Notes under the pieces: model-generated
Told to the model about the DNA's origin: nothing
What the model saw: the letters and a program-made list of their open reading frames with translations, nothing else
The model's database searches: none
Made by a program: the position numbers and the translations under genes
Origin: Acidihalobacter sp.
GTDB lineage: Bacteria; Pseudomonadota; Gammaproteobacteria; DSM-5130; Acidihalobacteraceae
Direction: 5' to 3'
Assembly (NCBI GenBank): GCA_027013225.1
Contig: JALUXU010000058.1
Location: 62,001-126,000 of the forward strand
DNA length: 64,000 bases
Part shown: in pieces, positions 19,407 to 26,813 of the stretch
Position numbering within the stretch: the first letter of the stretch is position 1
Layout: every line of letters starts with the position of its first letter

Positions 19407-19483
19407 CGGGGTATAGCGCAGCCTGGTAGCGCGCCTGCTTTGGGAGCAGGATGTCGGGGGTTCAAATCCCTCTACCCCGACCA
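19407..19483 (+). tRNA. tRNA-Pro (anticodon TGG)
   Basis: Full cloverleaf with acceptor CGGGGTA/TACCCCG, anticodon stem CCTGC/GCAGG with loop TTTGGGA, T arm GGGTTCAAATC and encoded CCA. First of seven tRNA genes. Confidence 0.97.
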
Positions 19484-19505
19484 AATACTCCTGCAGGAAG
19501 ACGAA

Positions 19506-19582
19506 GCGCCCGTAGCTCAGCTGGATAGAGCATTCGCCTTCTAAGCGAACGGTCGCAGGTTCGAGTCCTGCCGGGCGCGCCA
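19506..19582 (+). tRNA. tRNA-Arg (anticodon TCT)
   Basis: Acceptor GCGCCCG/CGGGCGC, anticodon loop CTTCTAA, T arm GGTTCGAGTCC, encoded CCA. It lies 22 nt after tRNA-Pro, probably in the same transcript. Confidence 0.97.
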
Positions 19583-19612
19583 CATGATTAACCCTCGAAA
19601 GAGGATGACTAT

Positions 19613-19689
19613 GGTGGGCGTAGCTCAGTTGGTAGAGCCCTGGATTGTGATTCCAGTCGTCGTGGGTTCGAGTCCCATCGCCCACCCCA
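19613..19689 (+). tRNA. tRNA-His (anticodon GTG)
   Basis: The extra 5' G(-1) pairs with C73, as expected for tRNA-His. Acceptor GTGGGCG/CGCCCAC, loop TTGTGAT and encoded CCA are present. Nearly identical in layout to E. coli tRNA-His. Confidence 0.97.
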
Positions 19690-19705
19690 TATAATCCGCA
19701 GTTGC

Positions 19706-19781
<76 letters not shown>

Positions 19782-19954
19782 AACCTTTCTTTCATTCTTG
19801 TTAAACCAGCATCATGCCATTGATCTCATCTCCCGCATTCAAGAGTGGATGCGGATTTGTTTTCAGGCGATGGGAATAAATCACATCTGCAGTGTTATCA
19901 GCTCTGTTGAATCGTTTGGAGGATTTGGTATTCCATAGGGTCTGTTTAGGGGGG

Positions 19955-19983
19955 TTGACGTAATTTTGTTACATCATTAGAGT
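19955..19983 (+). promoter_or_regulatory. Sigma-70-like promoter for tRNA-Ala/Glu
   Basis: TTGACG, a 17-nt spacer, then TAGAGT, about 20 nt upstream of tRNA-Ala. The 220-nt gap after tRNA-Lys is otherwise empty, so a new promoter here makes sense. Confidence 0.55.
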
Positions 19984-20002
19984 ACGCACTTTCCCATTTA
20001 AT

Positions 20003-20078
20003 GGGGCTATAGCTCAGCTGGGAGAGCGCCTGCATGGCATGCAGGAGGTCGGCGGTTCGATCCCGCCTAGCTCCACCA
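20003..20078 (+). tRNA. tRNA-Ala (anticodon GGC)
   Basis: Acceptor GGGGCTA/TAGCTCC with one G-T pair, anticodon stem CCTGC/GCAGG with loop ATGGCAT, T arm GGTTCGATCC, encoded CCA. Confidence 0.97.
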
Positions 20079-20139
20079 ATTTCAATCCGATATTCAAAGT
20101 GATCGCATGTATCGCGAGCACGGAAACCTTGTTAAAGAC

Positions 20140-20215
20140 GTCCCCATCGTCTAGAGGCCCAGGACACCGCCCTTTCACGGCGGTAACAGGGGTTCGAATC
20201 CCCTTGGGGACGCCA
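20140..20215 (+). tRNA. tRNA-Glu (anticodon TTC)
   Basis: Acceptor GTCCCCA/TGGGGAC, anticodon stem CCGCC/GGCGG with loop CTTTCAC, T arm GGTTCGAATCC, then GCCA with encoded CCA. Confidence 0.97.
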
Positions 20216-20266
20216 TTTATAAAATTCATTAGCGAAGGCGAGTACGTTTCGCGATGGATGTATTAG

Positions 20267-20306
20267 AAGCAAAAGAGCGGATCGCTTGCGATCCGCTCTT
20301 TTGCTT
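20267..20306 (+). terminator. Strong hairpin terminator after tRNA-Glu
   Basis: A perfect 18-bp inverted repeat (AAGCAAAAGAGCGGATCG / its complement) with a CTTG loop lies 51 nt after tRNA-Glu. The right arm ends in a T-rich stretch (CTCTTTTGCTTT). It should end the tRNA-Ala/Glu transcript and works as a symmetric barrier. Confidence 0.85.
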
Positions 20307-20487
20307 TGGTTAGGTGGTTCTCTTGATGAAATCAACGCGAGAGTGTAAATAGTTTCTGATGATATTCGAATCTTTAATTTCTGAGAAAAGGATGGTTGTA
20401 GAAAACTATCAGAAGGGGTGTCCGCTTTTATCGGTTCTGATTTCATGATCATCCATTGAATAGGCCATTTATTAAGATTTCTTACAA

Positions 20488-20573
20488 GCCCGGGTGGCGA
20501 AACAGGTAGACGCAAGGGACTTAAAATCCCTCGGCTTTGGGCCGTGCCGGTTCGAGTCCGGCCCCGGGCACCA
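20488..20573 (+). tRNA. tRNA-Leu (anticodon TAA)
   Basis: An 86-nt class II tRNA with long variable arm (TCGGCTTTGGGCCGT), acceptor GCCCGGG/CCCGGGC, anticodon loop CTTAAAA and encoded CCA. It stands alone after the terminator. Confidence 0.97.
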
Positions 20574-21035: not shown

Positions 21036-21049
21036 TTGATCTGGATCAA
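21036..21049 (+). promoter_or_regulatory. FNR/ANR box
   Basis: TTGAT-CTGG-ATCAA is a perfect match to the FNR/ANR consensus TTGAT-N4-ATCAA. Its centre (21042.5) lies 41.5 nt upstream of the start point predicted from the -10 at 21072-21077, exactly the class II activation geometry. It predicts oxygen-limited induction of the molybdoenzyme operon. Confidence 0.85.
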
Positions 21050-21071
21050 TAACCATTTCGCTTTATAAGCC

Positions 21072-21077
21072 TATAAT
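21072..21077 (+). promoter_or_regulatory. -10 element of the reductase operon
   Basis: A perfect TATAAT hexamer. No -35 is needed because the FNR box occupies that position. Predicted transcription start is about 21084, leaving a leader of about 170 nt. Confidence 0.75.
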
Positions 21078-21128
21078 TGATAATTAACATCATGCCTCTT
21101 TAGGAGATGCATGTACTTGATGCAAGCA

Positions 21129-21181
21129 AAACTCAGCCATCAAGCATGAAACCGAATGGATTTCCCATGATGGCTGGGTTT
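21129..21181 (+). other. Stem-loop in the leader of the reductase operon
   Basis: AAACTCAGCCATCA and TGATGGCTGGGTTT pair over 14 nt with one mismatch around a 25-nt loop. The right arm runs into TTTCATTTATT. It lies inside the predicted 5' leader and could act as an attenuator or mRNA stabiliser. I do not recognise it as a known riboswitch. Confidence 0.5.
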
Positions 21182-21255
21182 CATTTATTCATAACGAAGA
21201 ATGATTGGATTTGTAGTTTCGATCATTTGATGCAGACATGCGAGGTAATGGATCG

Positions 21256-24041: not shown

Positions 24042-24671
24042 ATGACTCATTACGCAATGGTGATCAACATCGATACCTGTGTGGGCTGCAATGCCTGCAT
24101 GGCCGCCTGTTCGCAGGAAAATCAGACTCCCGTCTGGGATCCAAGTAAATTTCGCACTTATGTTCATGATGAGGAATTTCAAAAAGATGGGCGCTGGGTG
24201 AGGCAGTTCTTTCCGCGTCTTTGCAACCAGTGCGACAATCCGCCATGCGTCACCGTATGTCCCACCGGCGCGACATGGAAAGAACCGAGCGGCCCGGTGC
24301 GCATCGATCCGGATATCTGTATGGGTTGCGAAGCCTGCGCCAATGCCTGTCCCTATGACGCACGCTACCCCATCACACGGGAGGATGTAGCCAAAGCGCG
24401 CGAATACTACGGTGCTGAATTTCTGCGCCGTCCGGCCGCGGCCGAAGATAAATGCGATTTCTGCTGGGACCGCCTGCAACGTGGTCTGGAACCAGCCTGC
24501 GTCGAGACCTGCGTCACCCACGCCCGCATATTCGGAGATCTGGACGATCCCAACAGTCTGGTGAGTAAGATCGTGGCCACGGGCAAGACCCAGACCCTGC
24601 TGCCCGAATTGGGTACGGGGCCTAACGTGTTCTATATCAATAAACTTCCGGAGGGATTGGCCAATGAATGA
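24042..24671 (+). CDS. 4Fe-4S ferredoxin-type electron-transfer subunit (PsrB/TtrB-like)
   Basis: A 209-aa protein with four cysteine clusters for four 4Fe-4S centres: CVGCNACMAAC, CNQCDNPPCVTVCP, CMGCEACANACP and CDFCWDRL...CVETC. It carries electrons between the molybdenum subunit and the membrane subunit. It has no signal of its own and is presumably co-exported with the Tat-tagged partner. GAGGAG lies upstream of the ATG; it starts 11 nt after the catalytic subunit and overlaps the NrfD gene by 8 nt. Confidence 0.92.
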   Translation: MTHYAMVINIDTCVGCNACMAACSQENQTPVWDPSKFRTYVHDEEFQKDGRWVRQFFPRLCNQCDNPPCVTVCPTGATWKEPSGPVRIDPDICMGCEACANACPYDARYPITREDVAKAREYYGAEFLRRPAAAEDKCDFCWDRLQRGLEPACVETCVTHARIFGDLDDPNSLVSKIVATGKTQTLLPELGTGPNVFYINKLPEGLANE

Positions 24672-25686
24672 TTCGGTGCATCTGGTCGTGACCACGGCGA
24701 CCCAGGACCGCTGGGCCGCATTGGTGATCTGGTATCTGTTCCTGGGCGGGCTCGGCGCCGGGCTGACGGCGATTTCGGTGCTCTCTCACCGCTATTTCAA
24801 GGCATCGACCGCGCTCACACTGTGGGGCGTTTTCGCAGGCGAGGCCGCTATGGCGATCGGTTCCATCTTGCTCTTGTTCCACTTGCTGGATCCGCTGCAT
24901 GTTTGGCGGGTGCTGGTGCCCTGGAATATTTTTCTGAATCCCACAGCCTGGATCACGTGGGGTACCCAGTTTTTGATATGGGCGATGGTGTTCGCGATCC
25001 TGTATGTTTGGCCCTTGCTGTACCGGGCCGAAGCCTTGCGCCGGATTCCGGGTCTGAACTGGTGGTTCGAAATTGGGATCGTGCGCTGGAGCGCTGAGAT
25101 TTGTGAACGTTTTGCTACCCTGCTGGCTTGGCTGACCGTCATTCTTTCGCTCGCCGTGGCGGTTTATACCGGCCTGCTGCTGCGTTCTTTCCCGGCCGTG
25201 AGCCTGTGGCACAATCCGATCGTGCCGGCCCTGTTCACGGTCTCGGCGCTGTCCACGGCCCTTGCGTTCCTGTTGCTGGTGCAGTACGCCGTTCTGCGTG
25301 ATCATGGCCCATTGGCGCATGCCTATGAACGATCCGACATGGTCTTGATCGCCATCGAGATGGGTCTGATCGCCTGGCTGCTCTATGGGTTCCTGCCGGC
25401 CACGGGATCGGGTCGAGCGAGTTACGAGCTGCTCATGGGCAATATGGGTTGGATCGTTGGCTTCTTGATCTTTGGACTGGCCGTTCCATTTTTGATCGAA
25501 CTGGTTGGCAGCCTGCGCTCCTGGCATTCTCCCGTGCCGGTCCTGGCCGCTGCCGTGCTGGTGCTGATCGGCGGTTTCCTGTTGCGGCATTATTTCCTGC
25601 AATACGGCGTGTATGACTTCCCCTGGGGCAATGCCTCGCATCTGGGTATCCTAGGATCAGATGTGGTGCAGCATGTCATCCGCTGA
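24664..25686 (+). CDS. NrfD/PsrC-type membrane quinone-interacting subunit
   Basis: A polytopic protein (340 aa) with eight or more hydrophobic helices, starting WAALVIWYLFLGGLGAGLTAISVL, a hallmark of NrfD/PsrC N-termini. It anchors the complex and exchanges electrons with the quinone pool. This is not the DmsC fold. Together with the two preceding genes it forms a complete three-subunit CISM oxidoreductase. Confidence 0.9.
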   Translation: MNDSVHLVVTTATQDRWAALVIWYLFLGGLGAGLTAISVLSHRYFKASTALTLWGVFAGEAAMAIGSILLLFHLLDPLHVWRVLVPWNIFLNPTAWITWGTQFLIWAMVFAILYVWPLLYRAEALRRIPGLNWWFEIGIVRWSAEICERFATLLAWLTVILSLAVAVYTGLLLRSFPAVSLWHNPIVPALFTVSALSTALAFLLLVQYAVLRDHGPLAHAYERSDMVLIAIEMGLIAWLLYGFLPATGSGRASYELLMGNMGWIVGFLIFGLAVPFLIELVGSLRSWHSPVPVLAAAVLVLIGGFLLRHYFLQYGVYDFPWGNASHLGILGSDVVQHVIR

Positions 25687-26233
25687 ACAAGCAGCCAAGG
25701 CAGAAGGTGAAACGCTCGCCGCAGAACTCGCGTTCTGCGCGAGCTGTCTTGCCGAGCCTGCCGAGGACTCCCTTGAAATTCTGCGCGAAATGCTGGATTG
25801 GCAGCCCTGGCTGAAAGAGTCTCTGAATGAACTCGAGCAAGTGGGTTTGGCGGTGTGGCAGGGTGAGCACACACGTTTGTTTGTGATGCCCGCTGTGGCG
25901 GCACCTTTTGCCTCGGTTCAGCGAGGCGGCATGATCAACGGGGAGGCCGCGGGCATGGCCGAAACTTTCTATGCCCGCCATGGAGTGCAATTCAATCCCG
26001 GTTTGCCTGGAGATTATCTCGGCAGCCTGTTCGAATGTCTGGCCTGGCTGATGGCCAGTGATCGGGTGCGTGAGGCGGTGTCTTTCAGGGAGAATTTGCT
26101 GGACGATTGGTTGCCCAAATACGCTGAAAGCGTTGTCGAACAAAGCCGGCTACGATTTTATCGCGATTTGGGGCGGCGCCTCGATGAGATGCATCAATCA
26201 TTGAAGCGAATTCATTCTGATGAACGCGAATGA
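25673..26233 (+). CDS. TorD-family molybdoenzyme chaperone
   Basis: A soluble helical protein of about 186 aa. The segment EHTRLFVMPAVAAPFASVQRGG and the later GDYLGSLFECLAWLM fit the TorD/DmsD family pattern (ExxRLF...P..S). Such chaperones bind the twin-arginine signal and help cofactor insertion before export. The ORF overlaps the NrfD gene end. ATG 25661 is an alternative start. Its presence supports export of the catalytic subunit. Confidence 0.8.
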   Translation: MSSAEQAAKAEGETLAAELAFCASCLAEPAEDSLEILREMLDWQPWLKESLNELEQVGLAVWQGEHTRLFVMPAVAAPFASVQRGGMINGEAAGMAETFYARHGVQFNPGLPGDYLGSLFECLAWLMASDRVREAVSFRENLLDDWLPKYAESVVEQSRLRFYRDLGRRLDEMHQSLKRIHSDERE

Positions 26234-26813
26234 AAACATGACGAGTGGGACTCCGGATGGATGGCAGATTCCTCTGCCCAAGGCTAGTTTGGAGGCGCGC
26301 TTCGATGCTCTGCTGGAAGCATTGCACCGCATCGGGGAGTCACAACTGGCAAATGCCGATTTTGTCCAACCTTCAATTGGTTACGATTACCGCGGACTGC
26401 ACACTGCCGACGAGTGGGATATCGGCTATGTCCTCACTCCGTGGATGCTGGCCCACATTTTCCTACCACGGAGGCCTCCAGCGCCGCCGTCCGCCGTCTT
26501 GCCTGCTGATTGGCATGCCAATGTGCGCAAAAACAAGCTCTTCCAATTGCTCGGCCCGGCGCTCGATTTCGTGGTTGGAGAAGAAATGCCGAGTCTGCAT
26601 GTCCAATGGATTGCCGACTTCGGGCATTTCCTGTTTCAGCCATTGATTCTCAAGCTGTCGCGCTATTCTGACGCCGAAGCCGTCTGGAAAGCACAGAGTG
26701 ATGTGCTCGAGGCCCGCGAACGGGCTAGCCGGGAGCGTCTGGCGGAGATGAAAAAACAGGATGCGCAACTTGACCGCCGTGCTTTTCTTCGACGCATGCT
26801 GGGAAATGGATAG
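26220..26813 (+). CDS. HybE-like assembly chaperone
   Basis: A 197-aa protein. The segment WDIGYVLTPWMLAHIFLP closely resembles the HybE family signature (GvLiTPWFMNLvLLP), and the C-terminus RRAFLRRMLGNG fits the family's FLRG-type end. HybE proofreads Tat export and maturation of [NiFe]-hydrogenase 2, but no hydrogenase gene is in the window. As the fifth gene of the operon it more likely serves the molybdoenzyme, or links it to a hydrogenase elsewhere. It overlaps the TorD-like gene by 14 nt. An alternative start is ATG 26238. Confidence 0.65.
   Translation: MNANENMTSGTPDGWQIPLPKASLEARFDALLEALHRIGESQLANADFVQPSIGYDYRGLHTADEWDIGYVLTPWMLAHIFLPRRPPAPPSAVLPADWHANVRKNKLFQLLGPALDFVVGEEMPSLHVQWIADFGHFLFQPLILKLSRYSDAEAVWKAQSDVLEARERASRERLAEMKKQDAQLDRRAFLRRMLGNG

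Follow-up and report, generated by a model that had tools for sequence, protein, structure and literature searches.

The locus examined here, in the 64-kb window (the whole 64,000-nucleotide stretch of an Acidihalobacter sp. contig that was analyzed), places a five-gene molybdoenzyme (Mo) operon behind a perfect FNR box. This raises the questions of which signal activates the operon and which reaction its product catalyzes. We consider it fairly probable that the locus as a whole represents an FNR-activated, Tat-exported, NrfD-anchored Mo reductase of an extracytoplasmic acceptor. The parts are ordinary and of known kinds; it is their combination that is informative (Table 1).

Table 1. Promoter, leader, and operon features, with positions numbered along the window
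Feature	Position	Strand	Details
FNR/ANR-type box, perfect	21036..21049	+	TTGATCTGGATCAA; class II position; read directly
-10 hexamer TATAAT, perfect	21072..21077	+	22 bp 3' of box; predicted start 21083-21086; no -35
Leader, about 170 nt, with 13-pair hairpin	21084..21255	+	z = -2.9 vs shuffles
Mo catalytic subunit A, 924 aa	21256..24030	+	Tat motif MTRRTFLK; 4Fe-4S Cys58/61/65/97; Mo ligand Cys190
Fe-S subunit B, four-cluster	24042..24671	+	NCBIfam matches DsrO (best) and TtrB (second), each under its cut-off
Membrane anchor C, NrfD/PsrC-family (quinone side)	24664..25686	+	
Chaperone D for Tat enzyme, TorD/DmsD-like (Nitrate_red_del)	25661..26233	+	
Chaperone E, HybE-family	26220..26813	+	C-terminus RRAFLRR

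The sequence-only reading had described a perfect FNR box followed by a perfect TATAAT, and direct reading of the DNA bore out both, together with their positions. TTGATCTGGATCAA is the sole perfect TTGAT-N4-ATCAA in the window, where a first-order Markov model expects 0.07 perfect boxes per 64 kb; under the same model, P = 0.002 for a perfect box in the 685 bp that separate the last tRNA gene from the ORF. The distance from the box center (21042.5) to the first base of the -10 hexamer is 29.5 bp, corresponding to class II spacing. The center position of -41.5 given by the same reading holds exactly only if transcription is assumed to begin at 21084 (a T), with the last TATAAT base taken as -7; initiation at the neighboring A at 21083 or 21086 would move the center to -40.5 or -43.5. 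No sigma-70 -35 hexamer was found at the operon promoter, a lack that fits dependence on an activator. Two weaker -10-like hexamers, TATAAG at 21064 and GATAAT at 21079, overlap here, and a -10 hexamer with at least five of six matches occurs at 21-24 bp for 0.55% of positions drawn at random from the window and for 1.9% of those in this intergenic region. With its predicted start site, the promoter has the class II arrangement of TTGAT-N4-ATCAA near -41.5 and a sigma-70 -10 hexamer; in E. coli, a class II center near -41.5 is the commonest single activating FNR position (PMC7349173). Its consensus box, good -10 hexamer, and lack of a clear -35 hexamer are common features of class II FNR-activated promoters such as those of E. 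coli dmsABC and Ideonella cld (PMC7349173), from which this predicted promoter differs in that its site may also serve a DNR-like regulator.

The genome (2.27 Mb, 99.97% complete) carries a gene for an FNR protein that scores 260.6 bits against an NCBIfam cut-off of 228. Its Fe-S cysteines follow CxxCx5C, with one further, central Cys, and its recognition helix is VETISR (E..SR), as looked for in an activator of a class II FNR promoter. Genome-wide, 12 perfect boxes were found, compared with about 2.5 expected from the Markov model of the window; several lie inside apparent coding regions, e.g., sucC and alr. Four of the 12 are followed at 22-23 bp by a -10 hexamer with at least five of six matches, for which the chance is 0.5-2% per position. 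These precede the Mo operon, hcp, cydA, and a thioredoxin-like gene, and the spacing shared at four genes makes the class II layout a pattern of this genome. Further perfect boxes precede the gene of a small membrane protein and one of cytochrome b type.

Between promoter and operon, the leader contains a hairpin of ~13 pairs within 21130-21180 (arms AAACUCAGCCAUCA / UGAUGGCUGGGUUU), and its fold was equaled in one of 200 shuffles. An Rfam search returned tRNAs only and thus no known riboswitch in the leader. Seven tRNA genes (Pro, Arg, His, Lys, Ala, Glu, and Leu) occupy 19407-20573, directly upstream of the operon region. When compared with a congener, the mla side was syntenic and the tRNA side was not; owing to the latter, an empty-site analysis gave no clean insertion junction.

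The five genes overlap or nearly do so. The start of the Mo subunit was assigned to 21256 rather than 21238 because homologues begin with M-[AST]-W. Full-length homologues, 44-76% identical, come both from the same class and from at least one other class of the phylum. In 15 relatives with sufficiently long contigs, which span at least two classes, all five genes stand in the same order. No full-length homologue was found in one congener and three genomes of the same family, where the best matches are SoeA-type proteins of about 25-27% identity. The Tat signal and the Cys-type Mo ligand of the sequence-only reading were both recovered: the twin-arginine motif is present in all family members with an intact N-terminus, and Cys190 falls at the position of PsrA Cys173, which is Cys in all members within the motif SPxQxCVxxGHLGTxxxTGN. 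Together with the 4Fe-4S site and the NrfD anchor, these are PsrA-type features. PsrA His145 is not conserved in the family; the segment that holds it in PsrA carries an invariant Cys163 (Mo subunit numbering; motif GGWxxC), a possible second active-site thiol.

We then placed the Mo subunit by phylogeny and profile scores. Its family forms one clade with support of 100 in a quick tree (56 rows) and 100/100 in a careful tree (28 rows). The nearest outgroup in the quick tree is PhsA/Psr-like (PhsA plus a Tepidibacillus protein; SH-aLRT 97), and the careful tree supports no particular sister group; Wolinella and Thermus PsrA lay outside the row set. Thermus PsrA is the best PDB match. The best NCBIfam match is PhsA PRK15488, at 302.7 bits far under the cut-off of 694; an E. 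coli plasmid PhsA reaches 1361 bits. Scores were 38 bits for TtrA (PRK14991 cut-off 1750), whose TtrA-like rows form their own clade, and 96 bits for NCBIfam ArrA (cut-off 1600). The family search found no ArrA references, and the lone ArrA/ArxA-type row (L093; 431 bits to ArrA) sits elsewhere in the careful tree. The sequence-only reading had suggested a periplasmic reductase of polysulfide, tetrathionate, thiosulfate, or arsenate; the Tat signal agrees with the periplasmic location, and the scores for PhsA, TtrA, and ArrA all fall far short of their cut-offs.

Among characterized systems, PsrABC and PhsABC share the Tat-exported, Cys-ligated Mo subunit and multi-cluster Fe-S subunit, and PsrABC also the NrfD-type anchor, whereas PhsC is a cytochrome b. 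The present operon differs from both in its separate clade, its longer Mo subunit (924 vs about 757-765 aa), a score well under the PhsA cut-off, the unconserved PsrA His145, and additional TorD and HybE genes. SreABC clusters (Acidianus ambivalens; Acidithiobacillus ferrooxidans AFE2177-81) likewise consist of five genes and include a Psr-like enzyme for which sulfur reduction has been proposed, and AFE2177-81, with its Acidianus-like gene order (PMC2621215), may well belong to the same family as the operon here. Expression of sreAC was higher anaerobically in one study (PMC12016491), in conflict with a report of repression in strain CCM 4253 (PMC8790237).

Regulation appears to differ among relatives. 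An FNR box with fewer than two mismatches was found in none of 17 other family upstream regions searched within 500 bp, including that of the 76% orthologue. Several relatives from another class carry a divergent gene just upstream, which in all four tested encodes a PAS/sigma-54 activator (L060, L063, L066, and L067). Sigma-54-like promoter matches lie about 70-115 bp upstream of the Mo gene in six (L060, L063, L065, L066, L067, and L070). Given the missing box and these activators in the relatives examined, FNR control seems specific to this lineage and may have arisen by promoter change.

This lack of conservation in homologues, together with the two overlapping -10-like hexamers, is what could be expected if the box were a chance match and the real promoter lay elsewhere. 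We rejected this idea as highly improbable, given that 0.07 boxes are expected in the window, that the spacing is exactly class II, and that the geometry recurs at hcp, cydA, and the thioredoxin gene. A better contender, though still unlikely, is that the main user of the box is a DNR-like CRP/FNR regulator whose gene lies downstream of hcp; the operon would then respond to nitrogen oxides rather than to oxygen loss. That regulator (L002) has an ETLSR recognition helix with the same E..SR DNA-contact residues as FNR, which renders NO and O2 control indistinguishable by sequence, and the same box is common to FNR- and DNR-type regulators. A perfect FNR box precedes the cluster that its gene forms with hcp and a ferredoxin-type gene (L087; G000:C9:45642-49152). 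Against its being the main user stand the canonical FNR encoded in the genome and the boxes before cydA and other genes without a tie to NO. The anaerobic induction predicted by the sequence-only reading accordingly keeps its class II promoter and bona fide FNR gene, but the DNR-like (NO) regulator could use the same box, and the activating signal could be NO as well as loss of O2.

As for the enzyme, identity with SoeABC, the cytoplasmic sulfite dehydrogenase, would account for the Mo/Fe-S/anchor plan and the Cys ligand, which are common to both, and the AU test does not reject (p-AU 0.18) a topology in which the family and the SoeA-type rows form sister clades. However, SoeABC is located on the cytoplasmic side (PMC8076601, PMC6397845) and is Tat-less with a DmsC-type anchor, whereas the Mo subunit here bears MTRRTFLK and its anchor is NrfD. 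The genome also encodes a separate SoeABC-type operon elsewhere (a Tat-less 966-aa Mo protein, an Fe-S gene, and a DmsC-family anchor, the latter two as expected of SoeABC), and its SoeA-type protein shares only ~27% identity with the Mo subunit. In both trees, the family lies outside the SoeA-type clade, which includes that 966-aa protein and is labeled by Tat absence, motif, and DmsC neighbor rather than by a biochemically proven SoeA. We therefore rejected the SoeA assignment, which has very little probability left. The catalytic-subunit phylogeny, named by the sequence-only reading as able to overturn its case against SoeABC, instead upholds it; its appeal to the Cys-type ligand fails, as all SoeA-type rows, that of this genome among them, share the Cys. 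More plausible than SoeABC, yet still improbable, is a periplasmic oxidase or dehydrogenase (quinone-reducing, ArxA-like or a reversed Psr) whose anaerobic induction serves electron donation. NrfD-anchored Mo enzymes work both ways in the superfamily (PMC8076601), and in two relatives the neighbors are probable cbbR/rbcL genes or a gene for a pyridine-nucleotide-disulphide oxidoreductase that could oxidize sulfide. This reading is countered by the class II FNR promoter, which is typical of reductases, and by the position of the sole ArrA/ArxA-type reference elsewhere in the tree. The direction of catalysis does not follow from gene content by itself, and ArxA- or Soe-like oxidation is possible in this superfamily; the operon probably encodes a sulfur-compound reductase.

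For the FNR-activated reductase that we favor, the box, -10 hexamer, spacing, FNR gene, gene order, Tat motif, Cys ligand, and clade are read from the DNA, and the proposed mechanism adds anaerobic activation, quinol-to-periplasm electron flow, the reductive direction, and a sulfur-type acceptor as its putative parts. Upon exhaustion of O2, [4Fe-4S]-FNR would bind 21036-21049, possibly helped or replaced by the DNR-like NO sensor, and would bring in sigma-70 RNA polymerase at the TATAAT (21072), yielding a single five-gene transcript. The TorD-like and HybE-like chaperones would mature the Cys-ligated Mo enzyme, which would be exported by Tat and stay attached to the periplasmic side of the membrane through the NrfD anchor. 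The quinol pool would supply electrons, which the Fe-S clusters of subunit B would relay to the extracytoplasmic acceptor. The likeliest acceptors are sulfur compounds (polysulfide or elemental sulfur, thiosulfate, or tetrathionate).

The HybE-like gene has no apparent hydrogenase partner: no uptake [NiFe] hydrogenase was found in the genome, where a PF00374 search gave one weak match of 30 bits. The HybE-like C-terminus is twin-arginine-like in all 15 operons compared (the window gene and L056-L069), nearly always of the [STD]RRxxF type. A claim of novelty for this motif was dropped, as E. coli HybE also ends GRRALLFGRR. In a broader and distinctly tentative reading, which we regard as possible rather than probable, the operon would represent a distinct uncharacterized family of periplasmic sulfur-type molybdo-reductases, in which TorD-like and HybE-like chaperones are always present, the HybE-like protein works without an uptake [NiFe] hydrogenase, and control was rewired in this lineage from an inferred sigma-54/PAS system to FNR.

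Together, these findings describe a molybdoenzyme cassette conserved across classes, with probable FNR control in one genome and, by inference, sigma-54 control in others. They also carry a warning for annotation, as this Tat-exported family should not be annotated as SoeABC. The presence of a HybE-like gene without a detectable uptake [NiFe] hydrogenase suggests that HybE-family chaperones also serve molybdoenzymes. For the organism, anaerobic respiration is predicted in a lineage that also has a separate SoeABC-type operon.
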